This document shows positions 4,293 through 22,049 of a stretch of 22,538 nt of DNA, one piece after another. The notes beneath the pieces are model-generated. The model saw only the letters and a program-made list of their open reading frames with translations. It had not been told where the DNA came from and made no database searches. The first letter of the stretch is position 1. Every line of letters begins with the position of its first letter. Made by a program: the position numbers and the translations under genes. The DNA is from a virus: IMG/VR virus record IMGVR_UViG_3300034062_007749, positions 1 through 22,538 of that record; one strand, given 5' to 3'.

Positions 4293-4694
4293 ATGGCAGG
4301 CACTTTTGCATTTGGTGCAATATTCAAAATTGGAACAACAACCATTTCAGAAATCACAAGCATCTCCGCTCCAAACTTGTCGGCAGAAACGATCGATGTC
4401 ACGACGCATTCTAGCGCAGACCGTTACCGTGAATTCATCAAAGGTTTGCGTGATGGTGGAGAAATCAGCATCGAAGGAAACTATACAACCGCATCAGCGT
4501 CCGCTACGATTATTGCGCTAGAAACAAACTCTACGCAAACGGTCACAGTCGATTATCCAACATCTCCATCAGTAACACGGTTCACCGCAACAGTGTTGAC
4601 GACTGGGTTCACAATGGAGGCGCCTGTTGATGGCACAATCCCATTCAGCGCATCTTTCAAAGTAACAGGGCGACCAACACTAGGGCAAATCTAG
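4293..4694 (+). CDS. Major tail tube protein
   Basis: This is a 133-residue all-beta protein with ATG 4293 behind GAGGAGTGA. It begins with a hydrophobic beta hairpin (FAFGAIFKIGTTTISEITSI) followed by TIDVTTHSSADRYREFIKGL, which matches the 'id.T.h.s....y.e.i.gl' stretch common in siphophage tube proteins. The middle has DGGEISIEGNY and the end TMEAPVDGTIPFSASFKVTG, the conserved closing beta strands. It would polymerise as hexameric rings around the tape measure. Its own strong ribosome site fits the need for high expression. No Ig-like C-terminal extension is present, so the tube is probably smooth. Confidence 0.85.
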   Translation: MAGTFAFGAIFKIGTTTISEITSISAPNLSAETIDVTTHSSADRYREFIKGLRDGGEISIEGNYTTASASATIIALETNSTQTVTVDYPTSPSVTRFTATVLTTGFTMEAPVDGTIPFSASFKVTGRPTLGQI

Positions 4695-4724: not shown

Positions 4725-5030
4725 ATGACAAGGGACATAATCAATTTAGACAAACCACGTAAACTTTTGTACGACTTAAATGCGATGCAAGCATACGAGA
4801 AAGTCACTGGAAAATCAGCGTTTGATCCGATTGAAAAAGTCGACGCTACTGTTTTAGGAGCGATGCTGTGGGCGTGTCTAATCCACGAGGATGACGCAAT
4901 CACACTAAAAGAAGTTGGAAAACTCGTTACAATGAAAAACTTAAACTACGTTGCAAGCAAACTCAACAAAGTTATTGAGGAATCTATAAAAACCGATGAT
5001 GAAGAGTCGGGCGAATCCTCAAAAAACTGA
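4725..5030 (+). CDS. Tail assembly chaperone, short form (gpG-like)
   Basis: This 101-residue, mostly helical protein (LLYDLNAMQAYEKVTGKSAF, then AMLWACLIHEDD) has the look of gpG-type chaperones: a short beta start, a helical core and an acidic Ser-rich tail (TDDEESGESSKN). It lies directly between tube and tape-measure genes, as expected. Its last sense codons form the slippery heptamer A AAA AAC at 5021-5027, just before its TGA, and the -1 frame continues as the T domain. In known siphophages the short form is made in excess and a minority of ribosomes shift to make the longer form; both coat the tape measure during tail assembly and are absent from the mature virion. The start ATG 4725 follows AAGGGGGAG. 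Confidence 0.83.
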   Translation: MTRDIINLDKPRKLLYDLNAMQAYEKVTGKSAFDPIEKVDATVLGAMLWACLIHEDDAITLKEVGKLVTMKNLNYVASKLNKVIEESIKTDDEESGESSKN

Positions 5031-5112
5031 AACCGCCACGCATCATCGAATTGTGGGCAAACGCCGTCACAGCGTTCGGACTCGCCCCACGTGATGCGTG
5101 GCGTTTAACGCT
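5021..5112 (+). promoter_or_regulatory. Programmed -1 ribosomal frameshift signal with 12-bp stem and possible pseudoknot
   Basis: The heptamer A AAA AAC (5021-5027) is in the correct phase for tandem -1 slippage and is followed at once by the zero-frame TGA. After six bases, CGCCACGCATCA (5034-5045) is perfectly complementary to TGATGCGTGGCG (5092-5103), a 12-bp stem with 46 bases between the arms. The loop can fold further: GTGGG 5053-5057 with CCCAC 5086-5090, and AACGC 5060-5064 with GCGTT 5072-5076. Alternatively loop bases AGCGTT (5071-5076) match AACGCT at 5107-5112, three bases past the stem, which would make an H-type pseudoknot. Confidence 0.88.
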
Positions 5113-5353
5113 AAGAGAGTATCACTATTTAAGCAAATCACATGAAGCAGGGGCGAAACGGGAACACTATCGTTTTGCCCTTGTGTGCAGCGTGATAGCA
5201 AATGCCCATCGGAGTAAAGGCAAACCGTTTAAGCCCGATGACTTTATGCCACGAGAAAGACGAAAGAAACAGACATGGCAAGAGCAGCTACAAGTATTAC
5301 AACAGTTTGTAGCGTCTTACGGAGATAAGAAAAGTGGTGGTGACGAAACATGA
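5027..5353 (+). CDS. Tail assembly chaperone, frameshift extension (T domain of gpGT-like protein)
   Basis: The -1 frame entered at the slippery site is open to the TGA at 5351-5353 and adds 108 residues (LKPPRIIELWANAVTAFG...), giving a fusion of about 209 residues. The segment is helical (LAPRDAWRLTLREYHYLSKS) and basic towards the end, like the T half that recruits tail tube subunits in lambda. A separate start is unlikely: the nearest candidate is TTG 5051, without a good binding site and inside the predicted RNA stem-loop. Its stop overlaps the tape-measure ATG (ATGA), so tape-measure translation may depend on ribosomes that have shifted frame or on reinitiation. It should be annotated as a frameshifted product of the gene at 4725, not as an independent gene. 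Confidence 0.83.
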   Translation: MKPPRIIELWANAVTAFGLAPRDAWRLTLREYHYLSKSHEAGAKREHYRFALVCSVIANAHRSKGKPFKPDDFMPRERRKKQTWQEQLQVLQQFVASYGDKKSGGDET

Positions 5354-8184
5354 TACAAGAATTATTTGTGAAGATATCGTCTGACTTCAAAGAGTTAAAC
5401 AGAGGTTTCACCGAAGCATTTCGAAATGCAAAGACTTTCAGCAGCAAAATGGAAGGCTTGACATCGCTAGGGGACAGCATGAAAAACTTTGGAGCGTCGA
5501 TGACTGGGTTTGTCACGCTACCCCTCGCTCTTGCGGGTGGAGCAGCGATAAAGCTAGCGAGCGACATGGAAGAAACGCAGAACAAAGTTAGCGTTGCATT
5601 CGGCGACTCGGCGCAAGCGGTGAAGGATTGGTCAAAAACATCCATTGAATCAATGGGACTAGCGCAACAGTCAGCACTTGACGCTGCTGCTTTATTCGGC
5701 GACATGGGCACATCGATGGGGATAGCACGAGACGATGCAGCAGAAATGTCAATGGGGCTCACGCAACTTGGCGCAGATTTAGCGTCTTTCAAAAACGTGG
5801 GCATCGACCAAGCGATGGGCGCATTAAAAGGAGTTTTCACAGGAGAAACGGACTCGCTGACGCAATTAGGATACGTGATGACGGAAACAAATCTCAAAGC
5901 GTTTGCGATGAGTAAGGGTATCACCAAAAATGTCGAAGATATGACGCAGGCAGAGAAGGTTAATCTAAGGTTTGCATTCGTTATGGAAGCTACAAAAAAT
6001 GCGCAAGGAGATTTTTCACGCACAAGCGAAGGCGCAGCGAATCAGATGCGTATGTTCGGGGAATCGCTAAAAGAATTGGGAGCGATTTTAGGCGCTACGA
6101 TTTTACCCTTGTTCACGAAAGTTATAAAATTTACCAACGGAATACTGCAAGAGTTTATGGGATTATCGGAAGGAACGAAAAAAGTCATCATTGGTGTAGG
6201 AGCGTTTGCGCTTGCATTGGGTCCAGTGATTGTAGGAATCGGGGCTGTTTTAGCAGCATTGCCACTGATGACAACTGGATTCATGATGGTGATCCCTGCT
6301 GTAAAAGCCCTTGGAGTAGCACTAAGTTTTCTTGCGTTAAATCCGATAGGAATGGTTATAACAGCAATTGGCGCGCTTATTGCAGCAGGGGTTTATTTAT
6401 CGAAAGGCTGGGGCGAAACGCATGCTAAAATGTTAAAAATCAGCACAGCAATTTCATATGCGGTAGAAAAGGCATTGTCTCACGCTAAGTCAGCAGCGTT
6501 GTTTGCAATCGATAAGATTTTAGCAGGGCTAAACTTAATCCTAAAATTCGTTCCGGGGTTTGAAGATAAGGTTGATACATTGCGAAAGTCTTTGTCCACC
6601 ATGATGGGTGACGAATCAATAAAGCGTCAAAGTGAAGCGGTGAAGTATGCGTCTGATCAAGCTGGATTGTCGATGATTGCAGCATCTTATGCCGCCGAAG
6701 AGGCACGACAAAAAACAAAAGCGTTGGCAAATGAACTAAAAAACTCAAAAGATGCATCCGTGAAATACGATGACGGTATGAAAAAGCTTATGGAGAGCAT
6801 CGCAAAAGCAACACCTATAAAAGACAAAGCAACCACTTCCGAAAAGAGCAACAAAAAAGCAGTCGACGCAACAACTGAATCGCTGAAAAAAGCTACAGAG
6901 GCAGAAAATGAACGTGCCAAGGAACAGTACGAAAACACCGTTACACAGCTTGACAAACTCGGCGCAGCGATAACAGAAGCATTGAAAAAACGGTACGCAG
7001 CGCAGGAAAAAATAGAACTTGCAGCGTGGGAAAATAGAAAGAAAAAGGATAAAGCAGGTTTGGAAGAATCTTTCTCTGCTTATAAAAAAGCGTATGATAA
7101 TGATGTAAAACTATTAAAGGATAAGCACAAAAACGAATTAAAATCGTTCAACGATGCGCAAAGTAAAAAGCTTGCAATTATCAACGCCGAAACACTTCAA
7201 GAGTTGGACAAGGTGCAAAAGCAAATCGATGACATACAAAATCTCACCAAAACAGAAGAAAAGCAGTTAGAAGAGCAAGCGTATAACACCAAAATCGCAG
7301 AATTGCAAAAAGAGGTACTCACCGCTAAATCAGCGGAGGAACGCTTAAAAGCGCAAGCTAAACTTGATGAAGAAATGCAAAAACGTCAACGAGAGTTACT
7401 TTTAGAATCAAGAAAAATAGAGATTGAATCGTTGGAAAAACGTATGAACGACATACGAATTGACGGCGAAGAAAGGAAAAAACAACACGAGTTTGATACA
7501 GCCACTGCATTGACAGCTTTAGAAACTCGGTTAGAAAACGAGCGCATCGCTAGTGAAGAATCCTACACGCAAAAAGAAGAGACGTATCAAAGAAATCTTC
7601 AGCAACTAGACGGATACATCGAAGATGAGGTTTCAAAGGTTAGGTCAAAATTCGAAACATTGACAAGCGATGAAAAGTTGTTTGAGGAGTCACGGCGACT
7701 AGCACTAAGAGAGAATCAAGACGAATTGATAAAATTGCTCAACGAGTATAATCCGAAGTGGCAGGATGCAGGACAAAGTTTCGGGCAGAGCATGCTAAAC
7801 GGATTGAACTCGATGAAGTCAAGCATCCAGCAAACGGTCAACGAGATACTGGGCATGGTTGGCAAGATTGAAAACGAGAAACGCTATTTGCAGGGATTAA
7901 TCGAACAGGGTAAACAAACAGGAAATACAGGGTTGGTGAATTGGGCAAAACAGCAAGGCAGTTTATTAGGCGTGCCGTTTCTAGCGGACGGCGGAATCAT
8001 CACGTCACCAACGCTAGCAATGGTCGGCGAGGCAGGAACGGAAGCGGTTATTCCACTCAATCGACTGAACGACTTTGGCGGAGCAAAGGAAACGAATATA
8101 TACTTGGATGGACGAAAAATAACAGGGGTCCTCGCTCCAACGATGGTGGACATGATACGTGGTCGTGTAGGGAGTGCATACTGA
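5350..8184 (+). CDS. Tail tape measure protein
   Basis: This is the longest protein (944 residues), starting at an ATG that overlaps the chaperone stop. The N-terminal third is a TP901-type tape-measure core with a hydrophobic segment near residues 48-71 and FGDSAQAVKDWSKTSIESMG and ALFGDMGTSMG stretches. Residues about 280-353 hold several hydrophobic segments (LGPVIVGIGAVLAAL, LNPIGMVITAIGALIAAGV) that could enter the host membrane during DNA ejection. Residues about 500-785 are a long charged coiled coil rich in Lys, Glu and Gln. The C-terminus has the conserved ADGGIITSPTLAMVGEAG..AVIPL motif near 880-905. No peptidase or lysozyme motif was seen. By the usual rule of about 1.5 angstrom per residue, the tail would be near 140 nm; that figure is an inference. 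Confidence 0.92.
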   Translation: MIQELFVKISSDFKELNRGFTEAFRNAKTFSSKMEGLTSLGDSMKNFGASMTGFVTLPLALAGGAAIKLASDMEETQNKVSVAFGDSAQAVKDWSKTSIESMGLAQQSALDAAALFGDMGTSMGIARDDAAEMSMGLTQLGADLASFKNVGIDQAMGALKGVFTGETDSLTQLGYVMTETNLKAFAMSKGITKNVEDMTQAEKVNLRFAFVMEATKNAQGDFSRTSEGAANQMRMFGESLKELGAILGATILPLFTKVIKFTNGILQEFMGLSEGTKKVIIGVGAFALALGPVIVGIGAVLAALPLMTTGFMMVIPAVKALGVALSFLALNPIGMVITAIGALIAAGVYLSKGWGETHAKMLKISTAISYAVEKALSHAKSAALFAIDKILAGLNLILKFVPGFEDKVDTLRKSLSTMMGDESIKRQSEAVKYASDQAGLSMIAASYAAEEARQKTKALANELKNSKDASVKYDDGMKKLMESIAKATPIKDKATTSEKSNKKAVDATTESLKKATEAENERAKEQYENTVTQLDKLGAAITEALKKRYAAQEKIELAAWENRKKKDKAGLEESFSAYKKAYDNDVKLLKDKHKNELKSFNDAQSKKLAIINAETLQELDKVQKQIDDIQNLTKTEEKQLEEQAYNTKIAELQKEVLTAKSAEERLKAQAKLDEEMQKRQRELLLESRKIEIESLEKRMNDIRIDGEERKKQHEFDTATALTALETRLENERIASEESYTQKEETYQRNLQQLDGYIEDEVSKVRSKFETLTSDEKLFEESRRLALRENQDELIKLLNEYNPKWQDAGQSFGQSMLNGLNSMKSSIQQTVNEILGMVGKIENEKRYLQGLIEQGKQTGNTGLVNWAKQQGSLLGVPFLADGGIITSPTLAMVGEAGTEAVIPLNRLNDFGGAKETNIYLDGRKITGVLAPTMVDMIRGRVGSAY

Positions 8185-10592
8185 TGCAGATCATCATATC
8201 GGGGATTGACAGAACAAATCGGTTCCGCTCGGGTTCGCTGGAAATCGAAGACACAATCAACGAGCGCTCCATGGCACGTCTGCAACTTGTAGACGTGTCC
8301 ATGACGATGGATTTACAGGATGGGCAACAGATACAGATATACGATGACTATTCTACGCTTATATTTGCTGGGTTTCTCCTGTATCCGAAGAAGCATGTTC
8401 CGCTAGCTAAAAATGCGTGGTATTACGACGTAGAGTGCGTCGATAATCACCAAATTGCAGACAGATGGCTTGTAGCAAAAACATATACGAACACTGCCGT
8501 TCACACGATTGTAAATGACCTGTATACTACGTATCTCGTGCCAGATGGTATAACGCTAGGCAACATCGCTACAACGTCTGTAACGCTTGATAAAGCGTCT
8601 TTCCCAAGGGTTGGCACGGTGTCCGATGCGCTAAACGAGTTATGCGATATAACGGGTTTCAATTGGTACATTGATTATGACAAGAAATTTTATTTTACCC
8701 CTCGTAGCTTTTTTGTTGCTCCATTCGGAATCACCACTACGTCAAGTATAAACAATGTTCAAGTGCGACAAGACCGTTCGCAGTATCGGAATAGACAGTA
8801 CATCCGTGGTGGTCAGATACAGACGGATGAAATCGCATTAGAAAAGCCGACACCAAATCCCGATGGCGTATCTCGTGTTTTCATTACACGGTTTCCGATA
8901 TCGGATAAACCTAGAATATTTATAAACAGTGTTGAAATAACAGCTACGGATATAGGGGTAAACGGTGTAGACAAAAACAAAAAGTATTACTATGATGTGG
9001 GGAAGAACACGATTGTTCAGGACGGAACGCAGACTGTTTTATCAACAGCAGACGTGATACAGGTAACATATAAAGGCTTAATTTCCCTTGCCGTTGTATC
9101 GGAAGATCCCATTTCCATCGCAAACCGTGCATCGCTAGAAGGTAACACAGGCGTATACGAGCGTATCGATGTCGACACATCCATTGTGTCACGTGGTGAG
9201 GCGATATCGATTGCGACAGGAAAGCTTGAAAAATACACAAAAGTAGCGCGACAAATCACGTATGATACGTACACAGCAGGACTCGCCGCGGGGCAATTGC
9301 AAACCATCACGCTACCCGAATACAATATAAGCTCTACTGATTTTCTGATTGACAAGGTTACTATATCGGAGCTCGATGGAGCGGGGCGACTCGTATACAC
9401 GGTGCACGCTATCGACGGCGATCCACTTGGAGGATGGCAAAAATTCTACAACGACTTACTCAAACAAGACCTAAAAGCGAGTATCAGGGAAAACGAATTA
9501 CTGGTCATCCTCACCGCTACATCGGAAACGGAGGGCTGGACGGAGGCGGTAACACAGACAACACAAGCGTGTTTTGTTCCGTCTGAATTTTTGTATCCGT
9601 CAGATACTCTTATACCGTGCGGATTGCCTACTGGAACACTTTCGATATCACCGACGTCTTGGTCACCAACTGCAACTACCGCATCGACAACGATCAGTGT
9701 TACATCAAATGTTGCGTGGAATGTTTTCAGCAACCAACCTTGGCTTACGTTTACTCCTGTAAGCGGTTCTAACAACGGTTCTGTTGTGGCGACGGTGGCG
9801 CAAAACACATCTTCAACTCGAACTGGAGCTATCACCATCATTGGCGGAGGAGTGACGCAAACGGCGTCAGTGACGCAGGCAAGTATTCCGCAGTCAGTTT
9901 ACGCAAGTGTTACAAACGGAGATATTTACAAACAAACTGGTGGTACAGGGAATTTTGTTGCGTTAAGTCAAACGTCTAGGCAGTGGAGCGCAATGACTTC
10001 TGCTAATGGCAATGTATATTCTGCGGTTGTTTTTGGAGACATTTACATGCAAAGTGGTGGTACAGGGAATTTTGTTGCACTCGGGCAAACTTCAAGAGGG
10101 TGGCGTGGTATGACAAAACTCGGTAGCGATGTATATGCTTGTGTAAATGGTGGCGACATTTACAAGCAAACTGGAGGTACAGGGAATTTTGTTGGGCTTG
10201 GGCAAACAGTAAGGGGTTGGATGGCTATGGCAACCGCAAATGGAAACGTATACGCTTTTGTTCAAAATGGTGACATTTATATGCAGACTGGCGGTACAGG
10301 GAATTTTGTCGCACTCGGTCAAACAAATAGGAACTGGGTTGACGCAACATCTAATAACGGAAATGTTTATGCAGCAGTGAACAACGGCGACATTTACATG
10401 CAAAGTGGTGGTACAGGGAATTTTGTTGCACTCGGGCAAACTTCACGGACATGGACTGGAATGGCGTCCGCCAATAATGATGTATACGCGGCAACATTTA
10501 CTGGCGACATTTACAAGCAAACTGGAGGTACAGGGAATTTTGTTGGGCTTGGGCAAACGTCTAGACAGTGGTCGAAGATGACATCTTTGTAA
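8184..10592 (+). CDS. Baseplate / tail-associated protein with BACON-like domain and six-unit C-terminal repeat
   Basis: ATG 8184 overlaps the tape-measure stop and gives 802 residues; the frame is open further upstream to 7941 but that part lies inside the tape-measure gene. The N-terminal ~470 residues look like a baseplate hub or tail-associated protein (SGSLEIEDTINERSMARLQL, DGQQIQIYDD, YYDVECVDNHQIADRW, DALNELCDITGFNWYID). No separate distal-tail gene lies between this and the tape measure, so it may combine both roles. Residues about 482-568 resemble a BACON domain (LSISPTSWSP, ISVTSNVAWNV, GAITIIGGGVTQTASVTQA), a fold often tied to carbohydrate or cell-surface binding. Residues about 572-802 are six 39-residue repeats. 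The likely role is tail-tip binding to a host glycan. Domain calls are by eye; the repeats are certain, the BACON call is good, the hub call moderate. Confidence 0.8.
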   Translation: MQIIISGIDRTNRFRSGSLEIEDTINERSMARLQLVDVSMTMDLQDGQQIQIYDDYSTLIFAGFLLYPKKHVPLAKNAWYYDVECVDNHQIADRWLVAKTYTNTAVHTIVNDLYTTYLVPDGITLGNIATTSVTLDKASFPRVGTVSDALNELCDITGFNWYIDYDKKFYFTPRSFFVAPFGITTTSSINNVQVRQDRSQYRNRQYIRGGQIQTDEIALEKPTPNPDGVSRVFITRFPISDKPRIFINSVEITATDIGVNGVDKNKKYYYDVGKNTIVQDGTQTVLSTADVIQVTYKGLISLAVVSEDPISIANRASLEGNTGVYERIDVDTSIVSRGEAISIATGKLEKYTKVARQITYDTYTAGLAAGQLQTITLPEYNISSTDFLIDKVTISELDGAGRLVYTVHAIDGDPLGGWQKFYNDLLKQDLKASIRENELLVILTATSETEGWTEAVTQTTQACFVPSEFLYPSDTLIPCGLPTGTLSISPTSWSPTATTASTTISVTSNVAWNVFSNQPWLTFTPVSGSNNGSVVATVAQNTSSTRTGAITIIGGGVTQTASVTQASIPQSVYASVTNGDIYKQTGGTGNFVALSQTSRQWSAMTSANGNVYSAVVFGDIYMQSGGTGNFVALGQTSRGWRGMTKLGSDVYACVNGGDIYKQTGGTGNFVGLGQTVRGWMAMATANGNVYAFVQNGDIYMQTGGTGNFVALGQTNRNWVDATSNNGNVYAAVNNGDIYMQSGGTGNFVALGQTSRTWTGMASANNDVYAATFTGDIYKQTGGTGNFVGLGQTSRQWSKMTSL
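9897..10592 (+). repeat. Six tandem 117-bp coding repeats (propeller-like blades)
   Basis: Units start at 9897, 10014, 10131, 10248, 10365 and 10482; the last is 36 residues. The consensus reads VYA...NGDIY.Q.GGTGNF, then VALGQTSR.W..M. The core GGTACAGGGAATTTTGT recurs exactly 117 bases apart at 9942, 10059, 10176, 10293, 10410 and 10527. Units 2 and 5 share about 57 identical bases, and so do units 3 and 6, so a three-unit block seems to have been duplicated or converted. Six blades would suit a tectonin-like beta-propeller, a common lectin fold. Confidence 0.9.
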
Positions 10593-10840
10593 ACAGCTTT
10601 TCGGCTACAAGCTACACTCAGGCTACAAAAAAGCTGCAACACGTTTAAGGTTGAAAAGTTAGTATATATATAGCTTTTCTACCTCTATATATATAAAATG
10701 TAGTCTTGTAGTCTAAAATATATATAAATATATATAAAAAAATATGCGTTACTGCACGCAAGCACAGTAGCGTTTTAGAATGTATCAAATGTTCAGACTA
10801 CACGGCTACAAGACTACAAAAAGCTACGGAGGTGTGACGC
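10593..10840. other. Non-coding AT-rich spacer with repeated (A/G)(A/G)CTACA motifs
   Basis: No gene is visible in these 248 bases. The motif RRCTACA or a close form occurs in a left cluster (10603-10627), a right cluster (10795-10827) and twice inverted in the middle (TGTAGTCT at 10699-10706 and 10707-10714). Between them lie long TATATA runs (10663-10740). The inverted pair and the right cluster share 13 complementary bases (CTACAAGACTACA at 10806-10818). GAAAAGTTA (10653-10661) can pair with TAGCTTTTC (10671-10679). A weak promoter-like TTGTAG-17-TATATA lies at 10706-10734. The spacer probably controls the fibre genes downstream; an origin or recombination site is also possible. Confidence 0.65.
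10746..10776 (+). terminator. Possible intrinsic terminator in the fibre spacer
   Basis: GCGTTACTG (10746-10754) pairs with CAGTAGCGT (10765-10773), with two G-T wobbles, around a 10-base loop, and four T residues follow. The T-run is short, so termination on the + strand may be partial. On the opposite strand the same stem would be followed by a run of seven T residues, so it may work better in that direction. Confidence 0.4.
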
Positions 10841-11287
10841 ATGGAAGATAAAAAAGGATGGCTTGGACAATATGAAATTAGCGTGGGAGACGAGCGATTT
10901 ATCATCAACAACCTCATCACCGATGCGGGGTTGGACATGGTGCGCAACGCATTTAACGGCGAGCTCACATCAACAGAAATACGCTACTTGGCGGTGGGAA
11001 CGTCTGCTACAACGCCAAGTACGACGCAGACGCAGTTAGGGGCAGAGATATTCCGCACGCCGTTCATAGCGTCAACCAAGCCCGCTACGGGGCAACTAGA
11101 AAAAACGGCTGTTGTTCTTGAAACGGAAGCCGTGGCGAATATCCGTGAGATTGGAATTTTTGCAGGAAGCACGGCGACAACAACGTCAAATAGTGGTATA
11201 ATGGTATCGAGGGTACTATACTCACGCAACAAGACGAATCTAGAAACGATTCAGATTGTCCGTAGGGATACGATACAAAGGGGGTAA
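10841..11287 (+). CDS. Tail fibre / tail-tip structural protein, function not established
   Basis: This 148-residue protein starts at ATG 10841 behind a strong GGAGGTG site. It resembles small fibre-associated proteins of Bacillota phages: FIINNLITDAGLDMVRNAFNGE, then EIRYLAVGTSATTPSTTQTQLG, then an alternating-beta part with VANIREIGIFAG and a final VLYSRNKTNLETIQIVRRD. The 'itdaGld.i...l...i.ylavGtg...p' arrangement is common where a fibre joins the baseplate. It is the first gene after the non-coding spacer and starts a run of small fibre genes. No receptor-binding domain is visible, so it is more likely a base or adaptor piece than the tip itself. Confidence 0.65.
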   Translation: MEDKKGWLGQYEISVGDERFIINNLITDAGLDMVRNAFNGELTSTEIRYLAVGTSATTPSTTQTQLGAEIFRTPFIASTKPATGQLEKTAVVLETEAVANIREIGIFAGSTATTTSNSGIMVSRVLYSRNKTNLETIQIVRRDTIQRG

Positions 11288-11291
11288 CATC

Positions 11292-11651
11292 GTGCCAACG
11301 TATACCAAAACAACATGGGTGAACGGATCGTCGCCTGCGGTGAGTGCTACAAACCTAAACAAAATTGAAACAGGCATTGAAACAGCAACGCCTCTTACTG
11401 GGCAAACGTCCACCACGAATACTGGATGGACGGCTACGACTGATGCAGGTTTTGCGGTGAAGAAAGACGTTGCGATAACGGGGGTATTGGCTACAATGTA
11501 TGCGGATATCCTTTTCACAACAGCGTCTTTCACGATTGCGCAAGACGCAAACATTGGATACGCCGTGACATACAACGGCGGTGTCACGTTATACGCCGAT
11601 AATGCGCCGAGTGGAACAGTTACATTTGATTATGTCATATCCAAAGGGTGA
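11292..11651 (+). CDS. Small fibre-base protein with 'NLNKIE' motif
   Basis: GTG 11292, with AAAGGGGG eight bases upstream, is the best start and gives 119 residues; the TTG at 11256 lies inside the previous gene. The N-terminus (YTKTTWVNGSSPAVSATNLN then KIETGI) is a motif seen at the N-terminal end of many Bacillota phage tail fibres, where it attaches the protein to the baseplate. The rest (GWTATTDAGFAVKKDVAITG, then YADILFTTASFTIAQDANIG) is beta-rich and low in charged residues. Here the attachment motif and the large propeller protein are separate adjacent genes, not one chain, which suggests a modular fibre assembled from subunits. Confidence 0.68.
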   Translation: MPTYTKTTWVNGSSPAVSATNLNKIETGIETATPLTGQTSTTNTGWTATTDAGFAVKKDVAITGVLATMYADILFTTASFTIAQDANIGYAVTYNGGVTLYADNAPSGTVTFDYVISKG

Positions 11652-11657
11652 GGCGAT

Positions 11658-12848
11658 ATGGGAAGTGGACGAACGAATCTAGGTGGCGGATACGTCAAAG
11701 TGAGCTATAACATCACGAGCATCACAGGGTTGCCATTGACACGTATCAATCCAACGCCACTAAGTGTTGCGCGCTATAATTTAGCAGGCGCAACGGTGGG
11801 GAATTATGCTGTTTTTGCAGGGGGATACACAGGCGCTGTGTCGTCTACTGTCGACGCATACGATAGGTCGCTCGTGCGGACTACACCAACAGCATTAAGC
11901 GAGGCGCGTTATAATTTAGTGGGCGCATCAGTAGGAAACTACGCCGTTTTTGCAGGTGGAATCGGAGCAGCGACAAGCTCCACAGTCGACGCATACAATA
12001 CCTCGCTTGTGAGGACAACGCCCACGGCATTAAGTGTTGCGCGCGCGCACCTTGCTGGCGCATCAGTAGGAAACTACGCGCTTTTTGCAGGTGGAGTCGG
12101 AGCAACGTACAGTTCCACGGTAGATGCGTATGATGCATCGCTTGTGAGAACAACACCTACGGTTTTAGGCGTTCAACGTAGCGACCTTGCAGGCGCATCA
12201 GTAGGAAACTACGCGCTGTTTGCAGGCGGAAAGAATGCTTCTGTTGCTTCATCAAACTTTGTAGACGCTTATAATACGTCACTTGTAAGGAGTTCGCCGC
12301 CAGTACTGACTCTGCCCCGATATGGCATTGCAGGAGCATCGGTTGGAAGCTATGCTGTTTTTGCAGGAGGAAGAGAGTCATTATCAATTCCAACAAGTAT
12401 TATCGATGCGTATGATACGTCACTTACTAGAATCGCAGCAACACTTAATGTTGCTAGAGGAGACTTTATTTTAGGAGGTTCGAGCGTTGCAAATTACGCA
12501 ATTATTGGTGGAGGAACTCAAACACCTGGTCAGGCATCGCCTGTGGCGGAGTCGATTAATGCATCGCTGATTGCGGTTGTTGAAACAGGGTTCACTACAC
12601 AGAGATACGTTCACGCATCCGCTAGCATAGGTGGATATGTGCTTTTTGCGGGAGGTTTCAACGGAACGACTTTATCATCCGTAGAAGCCTATGCTCCTGC
12701 AATAAAAATAAACTTACCAGCAGGCTCAAAACACCTATTCTCCCCTGCTACAAGCGAAACAACGGTTGTATCACAAACCACACTAACACTATCTTCTCCT
12801 GTATCAGGATACGTAAAATTCAAAAAAGGAACGGTGACGAGTGCATGA
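11658..12848 (+). CDS. Kelch-like beta-propeller tail protein (probable receptor-binding fibre)
   Basis: This 396-residue protein has about seven Kelch-like blades. The blade consensus is TPTALS.AR..LAGASVGNY followed by A.FAGG, then SSTVDAYD.SLVR; the double glycine after a hydrophobic strand and the 'VDAYD' closing strand are Kelch features. The first four blades repeat every 135 bases (45 residues), and later ones are longer and more diverged. A non-repeat end (INLPAGSKHLFSPATSETTV) probably packs as a beta sandwich. Kelch propellers usually bind proteins or sugars; here the place among fibre genes points to binding of the host surface. No enzyme motif such as galactose-oxidase copper ligands was found. 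The start is ATG 11658 after GGGTGAGG; the stop overlaps the next ATG. Confidence 0.75.
   Translation: MGSGRTNLGGGYVKVSYNITSITGLPLTRINPTPLSVARYNLAGATVGNYAVFAGGYTGAVSSTVDAYDRSLVRTTPTALSEARYNLVGASVGNYAVFAGGIGAATSSTVDAYNTSLVRTTPTALSVARAHLAGASVGNYALFAGGVGATYSSTVDAYDASLVRTTPTVLGVQRSDLAGASVGNYALFAGGKNASVASSNFVDAYNTSLVRSSPPVLTLPRYGIAGASVGSYAVFAGGRESLSIPTSIIDAYDTSLTRIAATLNVARGDFILGGSSVANYAIIGGGTQTPGQASPVAESINASLIAVVETGFTTQRYVHASASIGGYVLFAGGFNGTTLSSVEAYAPAIKINLPAGSKHLFSPATSETTVVSQTTLTLSSPVSGYVKFKKGTVTSA
11742..12700 (+). repeat. Kelch-like coding repeats, 135-bp period in the first four units
   Basis: GGCGCATCAGTAGGAAACTA is found at 11922, 12057 and 12192, exactly 135 bases apart, with a diverged copy at 11787. 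Units 5 to 7 keep the protein pattern (SYAVFAGG, NYAIIGGG, GYVLFAGG) but not the DNA identity or exact spacing. Recent duplication or gene conversion of the first blades is likely. Confidence 0.82.
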
Positions 12849-21353: not shown

Positions 21354-22049
21354 ATGGACATACGAATCGTACGATACAGTGATCCACTAAGAATAAACTT
21401 GGCGAGGAATGCAGCGATTTACTTGGGAAAAGAAGATCGGGATAACATCCGCCGCCCTCTAAACATCTTACGGATGGGGCACACGCTGGAGATCTTCCGT
21501 GGTGAATCCGTAGAGTTTTCATTCACAGGCGTATCGAAAGAGGTATACGACCACCTCACCACATACACGACGAGGAACATGCGTGTAACGTGCGGGAATC
21601 GTGCAAAACTAAGCGACGGATGGGTGATGCCAACGGATAAGATGAAAAATTCTTCATTCGTCGGTACCGTGATACAGGAGGTGCACAAGTGGTATCGTGA
21701 GCTGGCGCATAAAGAGTCACCGCAGGTGGCACGTTCGGCGATGCCGTGTGGAGCGACGATGAATGAGTTCGTGATACAATTTAATTTTGCAACGTTGATG
21801 CAGGCTGTTTTTCCGCAACGCATATGGACACATGGAGCACAAGGCAACACGAAGATTGTGGTGCAACGCATGTATGAATTATTGTTGGAGCATGATACAG
21901 AGTTATGGGAGGTTGCCCGTGATTGTTTTGGCGAAGGCGCAAACGAGTGGATGCAGGCGTATCGGAAACTGAAAAAAACGGATAGAGGGCAACTGTTGAT
22001 TGATGAAATCGTCGGAGAATTTGGGAAAACGAAAAATATGTGGGAGTGA
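21354..22049 (+). CDS. ThyX-like protein (flavin-dependent thymidylate synthase fold), signature motif lost
   Basis: ATG 21354 follows AAGGAG; 231 residues. The overall plan fits ThyX: LRMGHTLEIFRGESVEFSFT then GVSKEVYDHL, which lines up with the 'GH.s.lEh..ftf.ieGvSR....QL' region, and a second half with MPCGATMNEF, N144 and R156 (FNFATLMQAVFPQR) and GAQGNTK in place of AQ.EIR. But where ThyX enzymes have the RHR-x7-S motif for flavin and dUMP, this protein reads T70-Y71-T72, seven residues, then C80. So it may have another substrate, need a partner, or be inactive as a thymidylate synthase. Nucleotide modification for phage DNA is one idea. The homology is good but based on alignment by eye. 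Confidence 0.66.
   Translation: MDIRIVRYSDPLRINLARNAAIYLGKEDRDNIRRPLNILRMGHTLEIFRGESVEFSFTGVSKEVYDHLTTYTTRNMRVTCGNRAKLSDGWVMPTDKMKNSSFVGTVIQEVHKWYRELAHKESPQVARSAMPCGATMNEFVIQFNFATLMQAVFPQRIWTHGAQGNTKIVVQRMYELLLEHDTELWEVARDCFGEGANEWMQAYRKLKKTDRGQLLIDEIVGEFGKTKNMWE

Follow-up and report, generated by a model that had tools for sequence, protein, structure and literature searches.

Do the two small overlapping ORFs that lie between the tail tube and tape measure genes of this phage yield a fusion protein by ribosomal frameshifting, and is the long RNA stem that follows the end of the first ORF a selected part of the signal? We addressed these questions in the window (the whole stretch of DNA analysed, a record of 22,538 bases) and in related loci. 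We consider it very probable (roughly 93%) that G yields a major product of 101 aa and, through programmed -1 ribosomal frameshifting with the downstream stem as stimulator, also a minor 209-aa G-T fusion.

The G-T overlap and its slip site

The gene order of the window is typical of a long-tailed phage, running from the capsid end through head-tail connectors, tail terminator and tail tube to the two small ORFs, G and T, and the tape measure gene (Table 1). The two small ORFs overlap, an X_XXY_YYZ heptamer lies in phase inside the overlap, and T is homologous to lambda T, with a match to PF06223, "Minor tail protein T", of 44.8 bits against a cut-off of 25.9. These are the features of the lambda-type arrangement, and we regard G and T as probable tail assembly chaperone genes of that type. 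G comprises 101 codons plus TGA, and its 3' end reads TCA AAA AAC TGA. An initial annotation had proposed a -1 frameshift signal with a stem in these two genes, and all the coordinates it gave hold: A AAA AAC in the right phase, the TGA directly after it and the six-base spacer read at 5021-5033 as it claimed, and its predicted products of 101 and 209 residues match the ORF and the -1 fusion translation. The proposal is further supported by the protein families, by conservation of heptamer, spacer and stem, and by covariation in the stem.

Table 1. Features of the G-T region of the window
Feature	Position	Strand	Basis and remarks
Major tail (tube) protein gene, 5' of G	4293..4694	+	PHROG 158 major tail protein, E 2.4e-16; Pfam TTP families just under cut-off
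G, putative zero-frame tail assembly chaperone, 101 aa	4725..5030	+	ORF; PHROG 2115 tail protein, E 6.5e-16; flanked by tube and tape measure genes
Slippery heptamer A_AAA_AAC	5021..5027	+	In phase with G; aligned clade: AAAAAAC 11/16, CCCAAAC 5/16
T, putative tail chaperone extension in the -1 frame; 209 aa as G-T fusion	5027..5353	+	Pfam Phage_tail_T PF06223, E 1.7e-11; fusion translation
G stop codon TGA, directly 3' of heptamer	5028..5030	+	Clade: same place in 13/16, 15 nt later in 3/16
6-nt spacer, heptamer to stem	5028..5033	+	Identical length in 16/16 clade members
5' arm of 12-bp candidate stimulator stem	5034..5045	+	Codons for P-P-R-I-I; letters, fold, clade pairing
Inner hairpin AACGC/GCGUU in stem loop (5060-5064/5072-5076)	5060..5076	+	MFE structure; varies among relatives
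Pseudoknot of the initial annotation (5071-5076/5107-5112)	5071..5112	+	Pairs in letters; not conserved
3' arm of 12-bp candidate stimulator stem	5092..5103	+	Codons for R-D-A-W-R; letters, fold, clade pairing
Tape measure protein gene, downstream neighbour	5350..8184	+	PHROG 1535, E 8.5e-40

Relatives were collected by searches with T, G and the tube protein in IMG/VR, plus further queries, and in genome_contigs. These returned 227 loci with a T match, of which 137 were distinct after removal of 89 repeats of the same region and one locus without G; 13 loci from a later query are left out of all counts. As no T relative was found in the annotated phage collection, where tube and capsid relatives have <60% identity, no annotated relative entered the comparison. 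A close clade comprises the window and 15 further distinct loci with T identity of about 58-97%; its sequences align gap-free from the heptamer on. The heptamer is in register across 16/16 members. It switches as a whole between the forms AAAAAAC and CCCAAAC, with the 6-nt spacer and the stem retained.

The clade also bears on whether T might be translated alone from an internal start, with the stem controlling that start. There is an in-frame TTG at 5051, the first T-frame start codon of the window, but it has no Shine-Dalgarno sequence, and the conserved T residues P-P-R-(I/V)-(I/V)-E lie upstream of it. This start is absent in 9/16 clade loci: in seven, no ATG, GTG or TTG occurs in frame between the opening of the T frame and 60 nt past the heptamer, and two have another start further on. 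Since T thus lacks a good start of its own, we rejected an independent T start, and a reading in which the stem serves one is scarcely credible.

Several features lie elsewhere in the window. Rfam families at gathering score gave no match over 5021-5112; the sole match in the window was to the int-alpA RNA (RF02996) at 880-944 (42.9 bits, cut-off 35.8), flanked by a head gene on one side and glycosyltransferase-like genes on the other and ending just 5' of the ORF at 960. This family, named for its int-alpA setting, is here found within a phage head gene cluster, and it also scores over the cut-off in 4 of the 10 relative records searched; in these, as here, the tail tube gene lies about 3.3-3.4 kb further downstream. 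Two ORFs are inserted between head genes at 960-2323, one (1607-2323) with weak Pfam glycosyltransferase matches and one (960-1610) with no Pfam match. Tail-region proteins at 8181-12848 carry a BACON domain with short sequence repeats after it, and one with Kelch-like repeats is also encoded there. An ORF at 21354-22049 is ThyX-like (Pfam Thy1, E 1.9e-8).

The downstream stem and its conservation

The perfect 12-bp stem with inner pairings that the initial annotation had described was recovered both in the letters and in the predicted RNA fold. All 12 pairs are Watson-Crick, the loop is 46 nt, and the fold (-35.5 kcal/mol) includes the inner hairpin. The stem starts 6 nt past the heptamer, within the 5-8 nt range for stem stimulators given in a section of PMC4066793. 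No upstream Shine-Dalgarno stimulator was found 5' of the window heptamer; scattered 4-mers occur in some relatives.

Because the stem sits in T coding sequence and its arms encode the conserved peptides PPRII and RDAWR, plain shuffles are too lenient a test, and synonymous controls were used. Protein coding alone rarely yields the stem: synonymous draws with the window's codon usage formed a mean of 8.1 of the 12 in-register pairs with G-U allowed, reaching 12/12 in 0.24% of draws and a Watson-Crick-only 12/12 in 0.023%. Against synonymous codon shuffles within T, the window had an MFE z of -2.30 (p = 0.023) and a helix-length p of 0.009. (Coding of the G overlap was kept in the within-T MFE and helix shuffles and in the outer-pair shuffles, and ignored in those of the 101 loci described below.)

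The stem at 5034-5045/5092-5103 is preserved in the relatives. Standard pairs fill 94.3% of the 192 pair cells of the clade, and covariation, which the initial annotation had proposed as a check on its signal, was found at 4 of the 12 stem pairs, where both sides have changed with pairing retained; 0/500 shuffles matched either the pairing or the covariation score. Sliding the 3' arm by 1-3 columns lowered pairing to 15-52%. Compensatory change of this kind is one mark of a stem-type -1 stimulator. In-register pairing is 12/12 in 11 members, 11/12 in two and 9/12 in three, namely L008, L026 and L030, the last two of which have a longer stem interrupted by a single-base bulge. Synonymous shuffling within T gave an MFE p <0.05 in 12/16 members; L008, L026, L030 and L056 do not go beyond the synonymous null in MFE or helix length.

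The slip site is AAAAAAG, GGGAAAG or nine A in a sister clade of 13 loci, which aligns gap-free as well; 10/13 of these loci form the same outer stem. Overall the sister clade extends the stem beyond a one-base bulge, with 87.6% of cells paired and a count of double changes no higher than in shuffles. A covariance model (R1) recovers this clade, with a score that may be mostly conserved sequence, and gives weak minus-strand matches to the palindromic stem; we give it no weight for these reasons. By partition function, the four outer pairs form at a probability of 0.92-1.00 in 26/29 loci of both clades, against means of 0.37 and 0.36 in synonymous shuffles of the two clades. Among those 26 loci, the observed value is equalled by 0.3-48% of shuffles (12% in the window, in part a result of the pairing bias of the peptides P-P-R and D-A-W-R), so that this evidence rests on the locus set and not on single loci.

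Together these data bear on whether the stem could be a functionless by-product of its two conserved peptides. Such an origin would fit the average of 8.1 pairs in synonymous draws and the members that are not significant singly, but we judge it quite unlikely given how few draws reach 12/12, the double changes, the formation of the stem at >0.9 in 26/29 loci and the attainment of the stem by the sister clade through another register with a bulge.

The initial annotation had further suggested a possible pseudoknot, in which AGCGTT of the loop (5071-5076) pairs with AACGCT past the stem (5107-5112), and loop pairings whose mutual exclusion may tune the shift rate; on this reading the pseudoknot would be the stimulator, in competition with the inner hairpin. 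The letters do pair 6/6 in the window, and also in L003, with 5/6 pairs in L002, L004 and L057, but the remaining 11/16 members have 2-4/6. The pseudoknot is thus complete in 2/16 and its cells are paired close to shuffle level (61.5% vs 57.1%), with double-change pairs no more frequent than in shuffles. Among the 16 clade sequences, no loop-to-3'-flank helix in any register exceeded 80% mean pairing, so the conserved pairing of loop with 3' flank that marks an H-type pseudoknot was not found. The alternative loop pairings are indeed mutually exclusive, as 5071-5076 overlaps the 3' strand of the inner hairpin; the idea that they tune the rate finds no comparative support, as the inner pairings differ between members and a search for conserved helices returned the main stem only. 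A pseudoknot stimulator therefore appears improbable, and we take the simple stem as the putative stimulator.

Slip sites and stems across related loci

The three exceptions among the 29 loci of the two clades, with outer-pair probabilities of 0.32 (L069), 0.50 (L070) and 0.00 (L155), are the three nine-A loci. They are still partly structured; L069 has a shifted fold (z98 -2.9). With a nine-A slip site and a weak or absent stem, L069 (from 3708), L070 and L155 are candidates for transcriptional slippage, and this post hoc observation suggests either compensation or a switch to that mechanism. RNA polymerase slippage on an A run, in place of ribosome slippage, is plausible for these loci as the source of the fusion. 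For the window we think it very unlikely: such slippage calls for a run of about nine A or T, but the run in the window has six A, and in five clade members the site is CCCAAAC, where the run is of 3-4 A.

To place the stem of the window among related chaperone loci more broadly, we used 101 of the 137 distinct loci. Of the rest, 35 had none of the listed heptamers up to 60 nt from the stop codon of G, and in one the T frame was shorter than 50 codons; where several heptamers occurred in a locus, a fixed list set which was used, the earliest entry taking precedence. In 47/101 loci, a helix begins 4-8 nt past the heptamer and is at least 8 bp long, compared with 10.7% in synonymous shuffles. 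With the two clades set aside, 28/72 loci have a helix of this length (vs 8.6%) and 20/72 one of at least 10 bp (vs 3.7%). The distance from heptamer to helix peaks at 6 and 7 nt. The 3' arm ends ~45 nt past the heptamer in many distant loci and ~76 nt past it in the window clade and its sister. So long a stem had been called unusual, a view that these counts do not bear out, because a stem commonly follows the G-T slip site in related chaperone loci: 16/16 clade members keep the stem (9-12/12 pairs), and distant loci often have a stem of their own at the same distance. In the sections consulted of a study of Enterobacteriaceae, a hairpin is considered likely relevant in just one phage cluster (PMC4066793).

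A_AAA_AAC is described as a poor slip site in E. coli in parts of PMC5009743 and PMC4066793, which counts against the frameshift reading. In a post hoc comparison that we offer as a lead, stems are stronger at A_AAA_AAC loci than at A_AAA_AAG loci. Counted by lineage, with lineages that are cut by T identity and not fully independent, AAAAAAC loci are more strongly structured at 8 vs 4 lineages (60% T identity; one-sided p 0.004), and the p value depends on the cut, being 0.006-0.009 at 14 vs 4 lineages (70%) and 0.17 at 2 vs 2 (50%). On one measure GGGAAAG runs counter to this pattern: its single lineage, of 3 loci, shows a dinucleotide z of -3.0, which is strong. We can therefore propose only tentatively that slip site and stem strength coevolve, with AAC, weak on bacterial ribosomes, accompanied by strong stems and AAG by weaker ones; the ancestral stem of the nine-A lineage may have decayed as RNA polymerase slippage came to supply the fusion, and the 3' arm of the stem may have been rewired between ~45 and ~76 nt.

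Proposed mechanism and comparison with known systems

Under the preferred reading of programmed -1 frameshifting, the majority of ribosomes would terminate at the TGA after A_AAA_AAC. The 12-bp stem 6 nt downstream would hold some ribosomes with Lys and Asn tRNAs on AAA AAC, raising the rate of slippage, and in these the tRNAs would re-pair on AAA AAA so that reading goes on into T. Roles in tail assembly would be as in lambda, with G coating the tape measure protein and G-T recruiting the tail tube protein by way of its T part.

The locus has in common with lambda G / G-T the gene order, the T family (PF06223), a -1 shift near the end of G and two products, here predicted. The slip site of phage lambda is G_GGA_AAG; the window differs in having A_AAA_AAC, a strong conserved downstream stem and a stop directly after the slip site. 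Frameshifting of 6-7% is given for two phage chaperone genes in part of a study of reading-frame transitions (PMC3711429). The -1 frameshift of E. coli dnaX likewise has an A-rich heptamer, a short spacer and a stem of about 11-12 bp; as described in a portion of PMC5009743, it combines A_AAA_AAG and an 11-base-pair stimulator stem with an upstream Shine-Dalgarno stimulator. The window, in contrast, has no upstream Shine-Dalgarno sequence, a 46-nt loop and a shift that yields the longer product. Transposase genes of the IS3 family, including IS911, share a -1 heptamer and a downstream structure in bacteria, whereas their stimulators are a three-way junction (IS911) or a pseudoknot (IS3), according to sections of PMC5009743 and PMC4066793. 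The g-t genes of haloarchaeal tailed virus HCTV-2, whose host is archaeal, have an A_AAA_AAC slip site like that of the window, as listed in part of PMC5009743.

Tailed phages are known to use frameshifting at this position, and the signal in the window appears to be a well-conserved case with a simple stem. Through covariation and coding controls, the present comparison adds evidence that selection in this phage group has acted on the downstream stem as part of the G-T signal. The natural series of AAAAAAC, CCCAAAC, AAAAAAG, GGGAAAG and nine-A slip sites with their matching stems would make the trade-off between slip site and stimulator measurable in one gene.
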